Part shown: piece after piece, positions 246-52,500 of the stretch
How positions within the stretch are numbered: the stretch's first letter is position 1
How the letters are laid out: each line of letters starts with the position of its first letter
Assembly: GCF_032118995.1 (NCBI RefSeq)
Contig: NC_092661.1
Coordinates: 19,169,185 to 19,233,184 of the forward strand
Direction: 5' to 3'
Source: Asterias amurensis
Lineage: Eukaryota > Echinodermata > Asteroidea > Forcipulatida > Asteriidae
Length of the DNA: 64,000 bases
Position numbers and translations under genes: made by a program
The notes under the pieces: model-generated
Database searches by the model: none
Seen by the model: only the letters and a program-made list of their open reading frames with translations
What the model was told of the DNA's origin: nothing

Positions 246-3200
246 TTCCTTGGGTCTTGCCATCCCACCGAGAGTACGCTTTCTCCAGCGAGCTGCCAAG
301 AGGAAAGAAGAACAAGGCATGCAGAAACAGAAAAAGAAGGATCTTCGTGAGCTAGAAGATGGGCACATCCCTTTGGAATCGTCTGCAAAAACAGGTAAGA
401 AATATTATATTGGGTATTTGTTTCGTTCAATGTATTGAGTTTGATGTTAATTTCTATTAAGGCTGGTGGTTCTCTCATTTAAGGGAACAAATGGCCTAGA
501 TTAATGGTTGGCATTAGTATTTTCCAATACACACTCATAGCCTGAACTTAATATTGATCCTATGCAGTTGTTATATAGCGCTTTATCACACCCAATTGAG
601 TCTCAAAGCACTATTCACACATAATGCCAGCAATCTTGTTCATTAATTGTTGATGACATTTAACCATGGTGCGTCTTATAGCACCTGAGCTTTTAGAGCT
701 GAGATTAGGTATCACTTCTTGATAATAATGAGCTCCTTGTACTTTATCAGTTCTGAAGCAGCGAAGGAGAGGTTTAGACCTGGCAATGGAAGAGGAGCTG
801 GAGGACGCTGGAGATGACGCTCTTGACAGCATTGTTGCAAAACTCAAGTCAACCGTACCTCAGAGAATGAAGGGCGGAGCTAATCTTACTGTGATGTCAA
901 GAAAAGAGGAGGAAGAAGGAGATATGGACGCAATCGTGGCAAAGCTCAAGTCAACTGCTTCTCAAAGAATGAAGGGTGGGGCTAAAAGAGATGAGACGGA
1001 GAAGCAAAGACTGCTAGATGAGGAGGAGGATGAGGAGTCAACAACCATCTCAAAATCAAGGACTTCTAAACAATCTCAAAGTGAAGAAGAAGAATCCAGT
1101 TCTGATGAGGATTCTGAGGATGTTTCTCAGGAGAATGAGAACCTTGCAGGTTTCCAAGAAGAGGAGGATCAAGATGAGGAAGAGAACTTCCTTGTAGTCA
1201 AGAAGAAAGATGTGTTTGGCATTAAACTGGAGAAACCGGTATGTACTTTATATTCATTTCTTTTGAAGGAAGTGTGCTGTACTACCTTGTCTATAGACCG
1301 TATTGAATATGACATCACCGTTCAAATATCTGCCCTACAACATGGCGTCTGTGCGTGTTTGTGTGCATGTGCCGTAGAAATCAAACCGGGAATGCTGCGT
1401 GATGCGTGCTTCATTGATGTACGCGTTTAGACGCACAAACGGTTTACCCTACAATATGCCGACTTTCATAGCAAAAAAGGGGTTATTCAGTATGGTCTAT
1501 ATGGCATGTAAAAGTTTGTAATTGATAACTAATAAATCAGATTAAAATATACCTGGCTGTTACTATCTGCTTGATATTCTTTTTAGTTGATTTGAAGTAA
1601 TGCTCTTCATGAACGCCCAGGCCTTGTTCATGCTATGACATCACTGGTGGAAGAAGAAGCATTACCAAAGTGTTTGAATTTGATTGTATGGAAGAACAGG
1701 CATTTCTTAATTTTTCTTGTTCCCCATGTAATACTTCATGAGCAATTTTGTATTTGTTTATTTTTTCGAGGGGGAGGGGTACTCCCTGAGTGCATTGTTT
1801 ATTAAAAATGAACGTTGACATAGCATCATGGTCAAGGCAGTATAGCATACATCCTTTAAGATCAAATTGACAGGTTGTACAGATCCTTAGCTAGTCAAAT
1901 TTTTGTTTATTACCCAGTCATTTTCCCTTGAAAGATTTAAAAGCCACTGTTTACTAAAACAATCCTCTTGTTTGATTCTGCTGGTATATTCAAAACATAA
2001 AGCAGAAAATACAATCTTTTATAACAATAAAATATTGATAATTATTTCCACTATTTACTGGACAGAAACAACGAGATCCTGCAGACGAAACTATAGAGGA
2101 AGCTAAGAAACAAGCCAAACCCAAAAAGCTGAGTAAAGTAGCCGAGGCAAAGAAATTACATCGGATGAAAATAGCTGTCAACACCAAGAAAGTGTTTGAT
2201 GAGGAAGGAGAGGTAATGAATCATTCATTTATTCATAATTTATGCAAATTTGTACACTTGACTAGAAGAGTTTTGTTACACTATTCACATTAATATAATT
2301 TCTTGTAATGAAATTATCACAAATAAATTAAATGTTACATGTTTTTTTATCAATATATTTCACTAGATAATGTTGTGGCCTACATTCATTAAGTGGTTCT
2401 TCTTAAAATAGTTTTGCTATTAAGATGAACCTAATCTTTGTTTTTGTAAGCAGCAAATGTTGTGGCCAGGCGTTCTAGTTCACCAGATCCAAGCTCTGCT
2501 CTTGTCAGCAACAGATAGTGGGTTTGAATTCCAGTCGTGACACTTGTGCCTTTGAGCAAGGCACTTAACAATAATTGCTTCGTAAAAAGTTGGGAAGGTA
2601 GTGCATTCTGCTCTACCAGCGGGGAACCTAGTGGATGATAGCCATGCCTACATCCTTAGGGACTGTGAAGGGGTTAACCCTGTTTAGGCTTCAGGATTTA
2701 GAGGATTTCTCATATAGAAGAAAGCAAGAAACGATACATGTTAAAGGACACACAAGAGAGGCACATATTGGCGACCCTAAACGGGAAGAAGTTTCAAATA
2801 CAGTCATTGAACATCACTCTTGAAGGGGCACAGAAATGCTCTCCTGGTAAGGGCCACTTCTATGAAGAAGATAAGTTTTATATTGGAACTTGCAAAGGGC
2901 ACCTCAGCAAAAGCATTTCTTTTTCTTTGGATGTTAAATTTTTCCTTCCGATGTACTTGATGAATGAATCATTCTGTCTATAGATAACCAAGCAGTGGCC
3001 GCCACTCCCTAACACTGGCGACTCAACAGAGGGCGGTATTGATATTGAGAAAGCCAAGGAATGGATGCGCGAGGAGGACCAGCTTGATAAGCAAGTGTAC
3101 CGAGAACGCATCAGGGCTAAGCATAAGGTGAGATATGGGCTAAGCATAAGGGGAGATATGTGTGAAACATGGGTGAAATATGGGCTAAGCATAAGGTGAG

Positions 3201-4900
3201 ATATGGGCTAAGCATAAGGGGAGATATAGGTGAGATATGGGTGACATATGGGCTAAGCATAAGGTTAGATATGGGCCAAGCATAAGGTGAGGTATGGGCT
3301 AAGCATAAGGGGAGATATAGGTGAGATATGGGTGACATATGGGCTAAGCATAAGGTTAGATATGGGCCAAGCATAAGGTGAGGTATGGGCTAAGCATAAG
3401 GGGAGATATGGGTGAAATATGGGCTAAACATATGGTGAGATATGGGCTAAGCATAAGGTGAGATATGGGCTAAGCATAAGGGGAGATATGGGCTAAGCAT
3501 AAGGGGAGATATGGGCTAAGCATAAGGGGAGATATGGGCTAAGCATAAGGTGAGGTATGGGCTAAGCATAAGGGGAGATATGGGTGAAATATGGGCTAAA
3601 CATATGGTGAGATATGGGCTAAGCATAAGGTGAGATATGGGCTAAGCATACGGGGAGATATGGGCTAAGCATAAGGGGAGATATGGGCTAAGCATAAGGG
3701 GAGATATGGGCTAAGCATAAGGGGAGATATGGGCTAAGCATAAGGGGAGATATGGGCTAAGCATAAGGGGAGATATGGGCTAAGCATAAGGTGAGATATG
3801 GGTGAGATATGGGTGGGTAAACAGCAAGAAGGTGATAAGAGACCTAGTCCGTATTGACCCAATGCACTTAAGAAATCTTAGTAGAACCATTTTGCGAGTT
3901 TGTTTCCACATTGGCCACTTTGGAATGCCTTTGTTGTTCAATCTCTGCATGGCACTTCACCGATCTACCTTACGACATCGCCTCAAGCAAGAACTCAATG
4001 TTTTACAGCATGAACCCGTTACTCTAGCTATGCTATCGATCAGTTGGCTTAACAAACACATTCTGCAACGATGGTCTTGGTATTCCAATTGGTAACTCCA
4101 AATCATCAAATAAGCTAGCACCATCACAAATTTCAAGACTCTTTTCAAAACATTCCTGTTCAAGTCATCATAGTTTTGCTCTTTAATCTATTTTCTTTTG
4201 AGCGCCCAAAGACTTTTTTCCCAAAGGTGTACAGTGCTATAAAAATACAACCTAGAAAGTTCTGCAGTAAAACCATGTAAAAGAAAACTCTCTAATGATC
4301 TGTGGTAGAGCCAGTGGTGTAACAATTCTTATCATTATTCATTTATTGTTCTTGTTCAGGCGGAAAGACTGAAAGCCAAAGAAGAAAAAAGAAAATTTTC
4401 CAGACCCAGAAAGCAAGCAGACTCGGATGATGTAAGTATTGTTTCAATTTGTAATATGCAGCCAGAAAGGCCTACTTTTCTTTAATGACTGTAAACAACC
4501 GACCAACTTTTCACATTTTTACCAGAATGAGGACGCAGGTGCCACTCTTGACCTTGGCAATGACTTTGAGGCCTTTGACCCCGACACACTACCTGACCCT
4601 GATAAATATGCAAATGAGGAGACCGACACAGACGAGGACGAAGAAGAAGATGTTAAGAAACCAGTGAGGAAACTTAAGAAGAAGAAGACAAAGAAGGAAG
4701 AAACCACACCAGAGACCGCATCAGCGAAGAGGAAAGCAAAGCCTGAAAAAGAGGGGAAAAACAGCAGCAAAAAGAAAAGGAAGACGCAGAAAGGGAAGGA
4801 AGATGCTGGTATGAATGACAAGGAGGAGTTTGATACTGGATTGACGTTGCAGGATGATGAAGCCCTGGCCATGCATATATTAGCAAGTAGTCAATTCTAG
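246..4900 (+). CDS. DDX10: DDX10 (DEAD-box RNA helicase) C-terminal part, six 3' exons
   Basis: Exons I can join: 246-394, 751-1238, 2066-2212, 2984-3127, 4360-4431, 4526-4900 (stop). All are bounded by AG/GT and phases agree, giving about 457 C-terminal residues. The helicase core lies upstream of the window. The match to remembered human DDX10 is clear: SLGLAIPPRVRFLQ near the start, the acidic stretch ending KKKDVFGIKLEKP, SKVAEAKKLHRMK, QWPPLPNTG, GGIDIEKAKEWMREED, FDPDTLPDPDKY, and a closing DTGLTLQDDEALAMHIL. DDX10/Dbp4 is a nucleolar ATP-dependent RNA helicase of small-subunit pre-rRNA processing. This tail is a charged, Lys/Glu-rich extension typical of the family. Exon 751-1238 holds an internal duplication of an IVAKLKST..QRMKGGA segment. 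Exon 2984-3127 runs straight into a 23-bp minisatellite that copies its 5' splice site. Identity is very likely; exact exon ends are by eye. Confidence 0.95.
2480..2690 (+). repeat. tRNA-derived SINE-like copy in DDX10 intron
   Basis: A B-box-like GGGTTTGAATTCCAGTCGTG is followed by GACACTTGTGCCTTTGAGCAAGGCACTT and a body reading GTAAAAAGTTGGGA, TAGTGCATTCTGCTCTACC and CTAGTGGATGAT. The same body recurs at 21215-21395 in the same orientation. That dispersed pair, with an internal polymerase III box, supports a SINE. No clean 5' A-box or 3' tail was defined, so boundaries are approximate. Confidence 0.6.
3116..3815 (+). repeat. 23-bp minisatellite overlapping a DDX10 exon end and copying its splice donor
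   Basis: About 26 tandem units of a 23-bp sequence beginning GCTAAGCATAAGG(T/G)GAGA. Several units carry 11-bp or 22-bp insertions of the (G)GTGA(A/C)ATATG type. The first unit starts at 3116, inside the DDX10 exon. Its first 12 bases are the last exon codons (Ala-Lys-His-Lys) and its remainder is the start of the intron, so the exon-intron junction lies within the unit. About eight units keep AAG|GTGAG; most others have GG in place of GT. A higher-order block recurs around 3230-3400. Long open frames on the minus strand here are repeat artefacts. Confidence 0.93.
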
Positions 4901-34500: not shown

Positions 34501-37500
34501 ATGCATCTATAAAGACAGTACACGTAAAAAAAACTGCATCCCTACTCCCATCACAGAATCAGCCATTTTGTTTTACTCCCATTCATGTCATTGAACCAAA
34601 GTGAGGCTGAGAGTTAGTTTCCATTGATAATGATTGCTCACAGGGATTGTTGCAAATATGGTAGTAGCATGAACACGATATATAGGACAATATGTGACAC
34701 TCTATGCCATAACCAGGCACTTCCTGCCAAAACTTTTAACTGGGTTTAATATCTCATCAAACAGATCAGCTTTAATATAACACCTATTTAGGGCAAACAT
34801 TGTACGAATTTTCTTATCAGAATAAAGACATCACAGTGTTTCGATGCTGATGGTTTGGTTTTCTGTACTTTTAATGTCATTTTTACTAATTCCAAGAAGT
34901 GACTTTGGCATAGGGTGATTACATATTTTTAAAGAGAGACTCCAATTTCTGTTTTTACAGCATGCATTATTTTGATGGATTCTCAATCGTGTTAGGTAGT
35001 AGAAATAAGATGATCATTCATTTGGAGACACCATTCGTAGAATTTGGTGGCATAATTTTATTGAGAAGTAAGGTAGCTTTTAGTAGGTACCCCTAGCAGT
35101 TTCAAGAGTATCTTTTGTGATTGACTTTCCATCAGTCAGAGTACAGTAATTCTGAAGGTCAACAATATCTCTAATGGTTTGATTTCCTTAATTCCAGGGG
35201 CTGTTTATCAAAACATCCACTATTGACGGAATTCATTACATAACAGGCACCAAGGAGCAGGTAAACTCAGGAAATAGTCTAGCATTTTAACTACTGAATG
35301 AAGCTTAGTATTTGATAGTTAATGTTTAAGGGGGTCAATAAAATGGTTGTTATTGAGAAAGTTATTTTTTAAAAGTCACCCAATAAACAAATTACATCAG
35401 CCATTTGGAGATATGGTGGACACTGGTTGAACACACATGGTGCTCACTGACTGGACACACATGGTGCTCACTGACTGGACACACATGGTGCTCACTGACT
35501 GGACACACATGGTGCTCACTGACTGGACACACATGGTGCTCACTGACTGGACACACATGGTGCTCACTGACTGGACACACATGGTGCTCACTGACTGGAC
35601 ACACATGGTGCTCACTGACGTGACACACATGGTGCTCACTGACGTGACACACATGGTGCTCACTGACTGGACACACATGGTGCTCACTGACTGGACACAC
35701 ATGGTGCTCACTGACTAGACACACATGGTGCTCACTGACTGGACAACATGGTGCTCACTGACTGGACACACATGGTGCTCACTGACTGGACACACATGGT
35801 GCTCACTGGTTGGACACACATGGTGCTCACTGGTTGGACACACATGGTGCTCACTGGTTGGACACACATGGTGCTCACTGACTCACTATGCAGCTTTGAA
35901 CACCCACACCAAACAGTGTATTTGTATGATGTTTGCCAAATCAAAACAATTGCTAATTGGGAGACTTTACAACACAAGGTGGCAGCAAATATACATGGTA
36001 CTATTCATTGTTTACATTGATATGAGCATTATGATCAGGGGGAGGGGGGGTACAAATCTTTTGATAGCCTGTTTCTTTCTAAACTGTTTTCAATAATAAC
36101 TCATGTAATATATTTTATATGTTGTTGGGTTTCTAACAACTGCTTACATTTAATTTTGGTTATCACTTTTAGTCGGCAGCAAACTTAAGCAGGAAAGTGG
36201 GCTCTGGTGATGAACTGTTAAGAGTAAATGGACAAACTGTGGTAAGCTTGAGAATGTCCCTAGATAACATTTTATGAAGACGTTGTGTAGAAAGTCAACA
36301 TGATGATACTGCCTTTGTATTTAAAAATTTACTATTGAGGTAAGCGAGAAAAACATCCCATGATCGAATAACCTGCAAGATATTAAAGGCAAGGTTTACT
36401 TTCGGTAATTGTCAAAGATCTGTATCCTGTCTTTTACTATTTAGACTCGAGGCATATTTAAACTTCAATAGACTAGAGCATGATAATGTTGATGTATTGA
36501 AACAGATGTTTACAGTTACAGACCCTATGCACAACGCGAAATGCTACATTGACGATGAGCTCACGGGGACGTCTTTTCACGCAAAGAATAGCTAACGTCC
36601 AGTCATTTGCCTCCTTTGACCCCATTGAGGCCGCTTTTTGACCAAGGGATCTATTGACCAAAGACTGATCACCCATTTATTCCTTACACAGGTGAGTTGG
36701 GAGCACCGTAAAGTCATAGAGGCTCTTAAGGCTGATTCTATGGGGGTCTACTTGACCCTACGTAAACGCCCCTGCAACCTTGGCTCTCCTGGGCAGATAA
36801 TCAGACCTGGTAACTCACAGTATCCTCCACTCTTCGGTACGCCACAACTCAGACGCAATGATAGTTTTACCAACATGAGACCCACAGTTGTGAATGGGGA
36901 CTTCCTCATGCCAGCTTCACCCTGTGATTTACTGGCTACTAAAGCAAGAAGGTAACACAGAGCCATTCAACTGAGAATAATAATTCAAATAACTAAGAGA
37001 TGTATCGAATAACTAGGGTTTCAACACTTTTTCACTTGGTTAAGATCAGCTCCCATATGCTCAATGCTCTTTTTCTCTGATATTTTCAAACGTAAATTAA
37101 AGTTCTAATTCATTGTAAATTTCCAGAATGACTTATTGCAGAGTTTATTTTTATGTTTCCCACTGTCATACAATCCAGACCGTTTAAAAGGGATAACAAC
37201 TTTTACCTTCAGTTCCCCCAAGTTATTGTTATCTTACATCTTTTTGTAGACACTTATCAAGAGTGGATTTAGCCTTGTTTGGGGCAGACTTGCATTATTA
37301 CAGACTTGCATTATTACAAATGATAATTGCAGATTATATGTCGCGTAACTTCAGATCTATTGACTCTGATGCCTTCGGTCATGATCTTGCTGACAGGATG
37401 GACTTTGTATCATTGTCTGCCCATGATGACATTAATGATCTTGTTGCTGGACTATGGCTGCTGCCTCCTGAATGGTGTTTCACAGAAAGATGTTTTCTTC

Positions 37501-49500: not shown

Positions 49501-52500
49501 CCTTCACCCCAACCCCACATTTCCTGATGTTGGTCCATTAGTGGTCCCCAAGCAATTTTATACACAAAGAAGAAACCAGAATATAAACAAATCACATACC
49601 AATAGTATGTTTTGATTTGACTACTTGTAAAGCAATGAATTCACTTTAGAATTTTCAATAAAGAAACAACACTTTGTAAAAGTTAAATGTTTTCAAATTA
49701 ATTATTTGGGGATATCCACCTCAAAGAAACTAGGAATCTACAGTCGTACATTAAATTTATTCCTCTGTATAATGATCAGACATTTAGTTTTGTTGTTTTC
49801 AAACGAAATGTCAATGAATCCTTCTTTGTGTATGTGTTGCTTAAAAATGGTCACCTCTTACAGAAACCCCAAATTAAGAAGCAATTGTATTTTATGGATG
49901 TTTCCTGCTTTTGAACTTCGTCACAACGTTCCGCGCAGGCTTCAAGGTATGTTGTTTAAATGTTAATGAAAGAGGTAATAAATCAATTAGTCAAAGTTCA
50001 GTCACATTTTAAATAAGAAGCACAAATTTGGAAAATTATGTTCATGTGAACTGCAAGATATTTACTGCATTTCATTATACGCTTCAAAATCAAAAGAAGT
50101 TAACAGATGTTTGAAAGTAACAATTTCATCAGCAAAGAGTATTGATTGTTTACATATAAAACAAGATGAAAACAATAACTTGATTGATATTTGTTATCTC
50201 TTTAAAAGGACACGTTGCCTTGGATCGGTCGAGTTGGTCTTTGAAAAGCGTTTGTAACCGTTAAAAAATGCATATGGTTAGAAAGATAATTTAAAAGTAG
50301 AATACAATCATCCACACAAATTTGCCTCGAAATTTCGTGGTTTTCCTTTTACTTTGCGAACTAACATGGTCGGCCATTTATGGGAGTCAAAAATATGACT
50401 CCCAAAAATGGCCGACCGTGTTAGTCGACGAGTTAAAAGGAAAACCGTGCAATATCGAGTGATACTTGTGTGGATCATTATATTCTACTTTTAAAATATC
50501 TTTCTTATCATATGCATTTTATAACAAACGGTTACAAACGCTTTTCAAAGACCAACTCGACCGATCCAAGGCAACATGTTCCTTTAAGAAATCTGCCAAA
50601 GCTGCATCAAATTGCTAACAATCGGGGGTGAAAATGAAGAAAAAAAATTCCTTTTTATGCTACTTAAATGTTTTTTCCCCATTATGTTGTAGAAGGGATT
50701 TCTTCCATTAGTTAATATTGTCTTATAAGGACATGTGTGAAACATTGGGCGATGATGGGCATGAGACTTGCTGTAGTAAAGTAGGGTTTAGTTAGCTGGA
50801 AAAGAAATAAACAATTATGCATTGCATGTTGATGTCAAATGTAGATAAGATATGTAGCCCCTTTGTAGTACCTATTGCATTTGTAGTTCATGTTTAGGTT
50901 CAAATATCATTTAAGTATTCTTTTTTGTATTCTGATTTTTTTTGTGGATTTGTTTACAACTTCATCTGGAATGCAGCTTTCTTTTTAACAAATCTATTGT
51001 TTGTGTATTGAGTTGTCTTAATGACTGTATTTGAACTAACTTTTAGAATTGCTACTAGCTTGTTGCATTTTAGATTTGATTTCTTTTTCCTTTTCCTTTG
51101 TGTAGCTTGATGTTTATGTCAATGCAAGTGCAACTTCGCCAAGTCAACATAGTTATTTTGTAATTGTGGGATTATATTTAAAGTTGGTCCAGCTATCACT
51201 ATAATAATCATTGCATTATAGCCGTGAGGTAGACTATGCTGAGTGTAGATAATGCTATATTTGTAATATTGAATTGTATAAGGATTGTACAAATAAGAGA
51301 AATGAATGTTGATTTTAATTGGTATGCCGAACCTTAATACAGTCCAAAGCATTTCTGGCAAATTCAACGGAAAGTATTTTCCCTGTCTCATAAAAAAAAA
51401 AAAAAAAAAAAAAAGATCAGACGATTTAGCCAGAAAAGAAGCAAATTTTGTACACATTTCAAAATGACTTCAAATACAAGCCCTGCAATCAACATCATAA
51501 GATTCTTGTTTCTTTGCTTCCTATAGATGTGTCTTTAAGTCCAACTCAAGATGCTAAATTTGCAAGAGTGTCCATCAGCGAACCTGCCACTCCTGGACCC
51601 TCCGACTCTGCCTCCCCTGGACCCTCAGACTCTGCCAACCCTGGACCCTCAGACTCTGCCAACCCTGGACCCTCTGACTCTGCCACTCCTGGACCCTCCG
51701 ACTCTGCCAACCCTGGACCCTCTGACTCTGCAATCCCTGGACCCTCCAACTCTGCCACCCCTCTAAGAGGAGATGATCCACTCCTTGATAGCTATAAGAC
51801 TATCATGGATACTTATGGATGTGTTGTGGGCTTTGAGAGAACAGCTGTGAGGACCAGTAAGCGATATACCAACAAGGATAAGTCATCTCTAAGGAGGATT
51901 CACACCGTGCTGGATAAGGATCCCAAGAAGAACAAGGCAGCTTTACAACGACGTGCTCTCCAGAGGACTTTAAAGGTACAGATACCTTCAGTAATTTCTT
52001 TGAAGTGAAATCAAATATTTTGTTTTCAGAAACCCTCTAATAAACTGGTAGTGGTGCCATGGTTTGCCAAGTGCTGTACCTTTCAGGCTGGCATTGGGTG
52101 CATGGTTTCTTCTCTTTTAAAGCTGGTATTATCAGGAAACTCTGTGGCTTGTGTACTGTGAATTTGCTCTCTACAGTCTCTTTTTGAACTTTGTGGCAGA
52201 TAAATGTGATTTCTTGTGCACCAGGAGGCCATGTACTTATTACGCATATTATTTGCCAAATTTCCTTCTGTCACCTTTAAAACGGTTTTAAAACAGTTCA
52301 GACTGTATCTTCTTTTGAAGGAAGTCATTGGAATATAATGGGTTTAACATTTTACAGAACTTAATTTGCTGGACTGTTTTTCTCCCGAAGGCCAAGAAAA
52401 CAGAGTTGGATCAGATTGAAGACATTCTTTCCAAGGCATCTCTAACATCAGAAGGTATTCAAGAATGGAAGAGAGATCATGAACATCTTCTAGAAACCGT

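Follow-up and report, generated by a model that had tools for sequence, protein, structure and literature searches.

A boundary-spanning minisatellite at the end of a probable DDX10 exon in the sea star Asterias amurensis

The stretch of DNA analysed here, a 64,000-nt window of Asterias amurensis contig NC_092661.1 to which all coordinates refer unless a locus label is given, contains a gene that is probably DDX10, one exon of which ends inside the 5' edge of a tandem array of 23-bp units. The identity of the gene comes from exons upstream of the array: the helicase pieces encoded there have human DDX10 as their top match in the PDB (2pl3, E 1.9e-30) and DDX18 as their second (7.8e-21), and the domain that follows the helicase core is CTE_SPB4 (3.5e-16, Pfam), in agreement with the name given to the gene by an earlier, sequence-only reading of this DNA. 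The features on which the analysis turns are as follows, where a slash within a motif marks the exon/intron join.

2984..3127, + strand: DDX10 exon with phase 0 at both ends, its product closing in ...YRERIRAKHK (splice signals present, frame open)
3114..3127, + strand: exonic portion of repeat unit 1, GGGCTAAGCATAAG, identical 23 nt downstream, with the match stopping further left
3128..3129, + strand: first GT donor, AAG/GTGAGA, presumed authentic, which links both phase-0 exons without stop or insertion
3114..3810, + strand: minisatellite of 26 full 23-bp units plus nine 11-bp half units (unit parsing)
3173..3174, + strand: the sole frame-preserving alternative GT among 27, adding 15 amino acids; TGG/GTGAAA, U1 energy -6.6
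3197..3199, + strand: TGA in the frame of the exon, contained in every exon extension past it
3228..3409, + strand: higher-order duplication, a 91-bp block repeated with 91/91 identical (unit parsing)
3387..3730, + strand: higher-order duplication, a 172-bp block repeated with 169/172 identical (unit parsing)
3813..3814, + strand: GT just beyond the 3' edge of the array, with the strongest U1 energy (-11.2) in 2985-4359
4360..4431, + strand: following DDX10 exon, AERLKAKEEKRK..., phase 0 (frame and phase)

Tandem Repeats Finder calls the array at 3114-3802 with a period of 23 (689 bp), and parsing gives the unit order ABghABijCDBijCDBhEABBBFBhEAbBBBBBAk, in which unit A is GGGCTAAGCATAAGGTGAGATAT and unit B differs from it solely by GG replacing GT. 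Since the unit begins within the final 14 nt of the exon that ends at 3127, each full unit holds the exon/intron join; the first consists of 14 exonic and 9 intronic nt, and the tandem units thus span the exon-intron boundary. The splice signal is retained in many, not all, of the full units: intact AAG/GTGAG (AAGGTGAG) is found in 8/26, and the 18 others comprise 14 with GG for GT, two with GTTAG and two with ATG/GTGAG. The GG units (13 AAGGGGAG and one CATACGGGGAG) have a base change in common, to which one of them adds a second. These counts bear out the sequence-only reading, which had described about 26 units, about eight intact donors and GG in place of GT in most of the remainder; they add three half units that also carry GGTGAG, a motif present 13 times within 3105-3815 when these are included. 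Blocks within the array are homogenised, as the 91- and 172-bp duplications illustrate, and a search that ignores very common words matched the array at a single place in the 491.5-Mb genome (491,506,623 bases, 23 contigs).

The 5'-most donor is, by prediction, most likely still in use, because it is the only one to connect the two phase-0 exons with nothing inserted and no stop. By frame and phase the exon end is real and lies inside the 5' edge of the array, where it had been placed before. When 27 GT sites from 3160 to 3832 were traced as alternative donors into the next exons, only the one at 3173 kept the frame open; those at 3160, 3162 and 3196 shift the frame and lead to a stop, and the remaining 23 take in the TGA at 3197-3199. 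The earlier expectation that successive 23-bp units would shift the frame can therefore be put more sharply, as an in-frame TGA plus two frame shifts. Several repeat units nevertheless present strong donors. The predicted energy of the U1 duplex is -9.6 kcal/mol for the exon's own donor, and among later sites three reach -10.1, two -9.8, four more -9.6 and one, at 3813, -11.2, so U1 pairing alone cannot select the first donor. On the + strand, the 702-bp array at 3114-3815 contains 14 GT sites at or below -8 kcal/mol (the exon's donor counted), compared with at most 4 in other 702-bp stretches of the window. The RNA of the array is predicted to fold less well than any of 20 shuffled versions (z = +3.3), and structure would therefore not mask these donors.

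We interpret the array, with a probability of about 0.85, as a boundary-spanning minisatellite of the type known as ‘mirages’. The exon is its likely founder because the 14 shared nt are coding: positions 3114-3127 are exonic and recur identically in the next unit, with the match breaking off left of 3114. The sequence of the exon relevant to this reading is GCTAAGCATAAG, and the prior claim that the unit starts within the last exon codons and runs into the intron holds. In the sequence of events that we propose, a short segment across the DDX10 exon end and intron start would have been duplicated, perhaps through microhomology at the GGG common to exon (CAGGGC) and intron (ATATGGG), which lies in the exon at the start of the unit and in the intron after it. 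The tandem would then have expanded by slippage and unequal exchange, with the 91- and 172-bp block duplications as visible products, while the exon's own copy would have been held by coding and splicing constraint and the other copies are intronic. The GT-to-GG variant is most plausibly a single mutation that was propagated by duplication, and the array itself is probably either neutral or mildly deleterious.

Comparable repeats are known from amphioxus and human genes. Amphioxus globin genes and Adh3 carry length-unstable tandem repeats across exon-intron boundaries, the original mirages, which are reported to leave regular splicing intact and have been proposed as a source of introns (PMC3087553); TnC is a further case, with similar repeats in PGBD5 (PMC3902484). 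The DDX10 array resembles the mirages of Adh3, BflGb6 and BflGb9 in its boundary-spanning units, in splice signals that persist in many but not all of them, and in homogenisation. It differs in its 23-bp unit (10-72 bp in Adh3, 150-160 bp in the globins) and in repeating the donor side, whereas BflGb6 repeats the acceptor side; moreover, splicing and instability have been reported for the amphioxus mirages, whereas the DDX10 array is known here from the sequence of one haplotype. In the human 6-16/IFI6 (G1P3) gene a minisatellite carries multiple splice donors (Turri et al., 1995, as cited in PMC4526556), so that its units, like those of DDX10, provide several donors. Two of its downstream units are said in that citation to be used, in contrast to DDX10, where the donors are predicted and 26/27 traced alternatives lead to a stop. 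Genes in human segmental duplications also have internal tandem repeats at exon-intron boundaries (PMC2812944), a position at which alternative splicing or new introns can arise; those repeats are found in recent, often polymorphic paralogues, whereas the DDX10 array has a single genomic match, with no new intron shown. Among the papers listed by literature searches on echinoderms and on mirages, no echinoderm example of a mirage-type repeat was found.

Several observations weigh against this interpretation or qualify it. Use of the first donor is predicted from frame and phase, and if splicing is correct, a factor beyond U1 pairing must favour that donor. Neither Pfam nor the PDB yielded a match to the C-terminal tail of DDX10 at E values up to 1, so the exact join of 3127 to 4360 is a prediction from splice signals, reading frame and phase. 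Coding constraint is what supports the proposed order of events. The exon end resembles the intron start with a score reached in 0.5% of shuffles, in a test that was post hoc; this likeness hints, as a lead only, at an older duplication of 11-12 bp. The human DDX10 tail, AKHREKRLKER, is a probable counterpart of the tail found here.

The same architecture appears to recur in four other genes of this genome, judging from their predicted frames. The genome was searched for strong donor octamers in threes, spaced by 4-34 nt, and the 21 loci around the resulting arrays (L033-L053) were read for a homology-supported coding frame extending into the first unit, which was found at 4/21. Additional patterns gave 16 more arrays, of which short stretches of four (L054-L057) were read. 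The loci with such frames are:

L045, C1:36701500-36709500, array near 36705391-36705710, - strand: VWA-domain gene (VWA_4, 1.5e-14), 39-bp unit, 11.7 copies
L043 (C12) and L044 (C22): TP53I11-like gene (p53-inducible11 family), 42-bp unit, 48.6 and 30.5 copies
L052, C19:15376000-15384000: HMBS (Porphobil_deam, 2e-12; PDB porphobilinogen deaminase, 9.6e-10), 32-bp unit, 3.2 copies
L054, C16:11318400-11319100: formin-like exon end (Drf_FH3, 2.5e-14; PDB formin-like protein 1, 4.8e-15), 64-bp unit

In the VWA-domain gene the frame is open throughout the 39-bp array, which would encode the 13-amino-acid repeat KFTSQNEPFNDPG; its first unit reads CAA/GTAAGT and most later units have the stronger CAG/GTAAGT, so repeat-containing forms of the protein are possible. 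The 42-bp array of the TP53I11-like gene reaches a stop soon past the first donor. Alone, the exon of this gene scores under the curated cut-off (8.4e-05, 23.1 bits vs 27), and joined to the next exon, which among the four loci of the first search was identified only for this gene, it reaches 1.7e-16, with the match covering profile positions 3-70. Its two loci lie on different contigs and share ~97% identity over long stretches (4,421 and 3,182 bp), which points either to a gene that was recently duplicated or to two haplotype copies that were placed separately. The HMBS array is perhaps a young case. The formin-like unit includes 41 exonic nt, and its pattern matches are spread over ~1.9 kb.

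The other 17/21 loci lack such support. At L033-L037 and L046 there is no sense frame of at least 20 residues across the 5' edge, and the remaining loci gave no match above cut-off, with RhlB (0.0017, sub-threshold and from a low-complexity frame) and Rpb2 (0.18) falling below it. At L050 (C12:4626800-4634800) a 14-bp array starts 4 nt past a possible exon end, CACAG/GTATGG, with an open frame upstream of the array and no Pfam match above cut-off. No coding exon was seen by eye at L055 or L056, for which no family search was made, and the stretch read for L057 ends short of the 5' edge of its array.

Several comparisons set these cases against chance. Sense frames across a 5' edge numbered 22, of which 20 were scanned, some after trimming to the presumed exon (the pair omitted are near copies of scanned ones), and 2/20 reached a curated cut-off alone. 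Of 60 control frames on the other strand or at the other edge, 20 hand-picked among the longer ones (8/21, 4/23 and 8/16 in the three classes of control) were scanned, and 0/20 reached it (best E 0.062). The difference between 2/20 and 0/20 is not significant, and what supports the exon-end cases is their individual E-values and the donor position, not this frame control. Triplets of donor octamers were also compared with reversed patterns, giving, as matches/control, 48/136 for AAGGTGAG, 17/4 for CAGGTGAG, 10/88 for AAGGTAAG, 26/7 for CAGGTAAG, 8/12 for AGGTAAGT (72/59 with long gaps), 20/35 for AGGTGAGT and 10/15 for AGGTATGT, with few arrays supplying most matches. The triplets are not consistently above the reversed patterns, and we make no case for donors as preferred seeds; the DDX10 array itself, in which the AAGGTGAG copies are too far apart, would escape such patterns. 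With the array density of this window only (3-4 per 64 kb) and a presumed count of 16,531 genes with ~10 exons, from a table row of PMC10625585, random placement would by crude estimate put a donor in the seed unit of some 150-360 arrays. A mechanism tied to splice sites is therefore not required to account for several boundary arrays.

Several other repeats were encountered in and around the gene. A second minisatellite lies upstream in DDX10 (L002:1662-2162; 16-bp unit, 31.6 copies), ~115 nt beyond a helicase exon's open frame, and its consensus unit contains no GT donor. Two 24-bp minisatellites occur elsewhere in the window, at 35413-35883 (19.7 copies) and 51584-51762 (7.5 copies), the latter of which could encode an 8-amino-acid repeat. 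An Rfam search of the window returned nothing at gathering scores; a stretch of a DDX10 intron at 2450-2650, with a B-box-like GGTTTGAATTCCAG followed by GCCTTTGAGCAAGGCACTTAA, resembles a tRNA-derived short interspersed element.

The abundance of GG units invites explanations other than propagation of one change. The sequence-only reading had raised selection against decoy donors, under which GG units would be favoured as removers of false splice sites from an array that is being purged of them. Such purging would fit the loss of GT from 14/25 decoy units, the stops that await 26/27 of the alternative sites traced, and a mean mismatch per site of 0.091 in the donor core vs 0.018 elsewhere, a figure that mostly reflects one variant. 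Yet one T-to-G mutation followed by duplication suffices for all 14 GG units, GT is kept in 11/25 decoy full units and in all nine half units, and the donor core of 7 nt holds 4/7 of the distinct substitutions counted in full units, which is not a significant excess (P = 0.13). Elsewhere the decoy GT is almost always intact: 9/10 in the VWA array, 27/27 (L044) and 46/47 (L043) in the TP53I11-like arrays and 5/5 in the formin-like array (six units read), by substitution-only matching of units and with HMBS left out, although these arrays were found by requiring three intact donors, which biases the contrast with DDX10. In L043, 11/47 decoys differ at +3 and +4, changes that would weaken the donors with GT untouched. 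Arrays full of decoy GTs, this shows, persist at real exon ends; the GG units call for no selection, the idea that decoys are purged in general finds no support, and we regard purging of the DDX10 array as unlikely. The earlier observation is real and well described, and its interpretation is supported in part.

Two further proposals would give the array or its G-runs an active part. Were the array a working regulator, splicing to downstream donors would yield stop-containing mRNAs and array length would tune DDX10 output, an idea to which the numerous strong donors, the weak folding of the RNA and the premature stops behind 26/27 alternative sites lend themselves, as does the use said to be made of two downstream units in human 6-16 (PMC4526556). 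Against that reading, the mirages of amphioxus are reported to leave regular splicing undisturbed (PMC3087553); we find it very unlikely. It is no more credible that GG units spread by mutational bias, through G-runs that destabilise the array in a G-quadruplex-like manner: the change does convert GG to GGGG, GG units form the longest runs of identical units, and a pattern of four G-runs is matched 23 times, with overlaps, when loops of up to 10 nt are allowed, but it has no match with loops up to 7 nt, and adjacent GG pairs number 7 vs 5.2 expected from shuffles (P = 0.18), or 3 vs 2.7 (P = 0.55) with one block copy omitted. Finally, assembly can collapse or expand tandem arrays, but an array of 689 bp is short relative to the HiFi reads of the A. 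amurensis assembly (15-kb library; PMC10625585) and its unit differences fall in a structured order, which makes an artefact extremely improbable.

Boundary-spanning minisatellites, described for amphioxus and human, would with these loci be extended to an echinoderm, in five unrelated genes of one genome. Near-identical tandem donors offer a test of whether splicing prefers the first donor, exon length or U1 pairing, and arrays whose units shift the frame (DDX10, 23 bp; HMBS, 32 bp; formin-like, 64 bp) can be compared with those whose units are divisible by three (VWA, 39 bp; TP53I11-like, 42 bp). New introns have been proposed to arise from such arrays (PMC3087553). It is conceivable, though we consider it doubtful, that exon-end minisatellites are common and length-variable in sea-star genes, so that the set of donors and the share of stop-containing mRNA differ between individuals. 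If true, the DDX10 array would be a natural assay of spliceosome choice among near-identical tandem donors.

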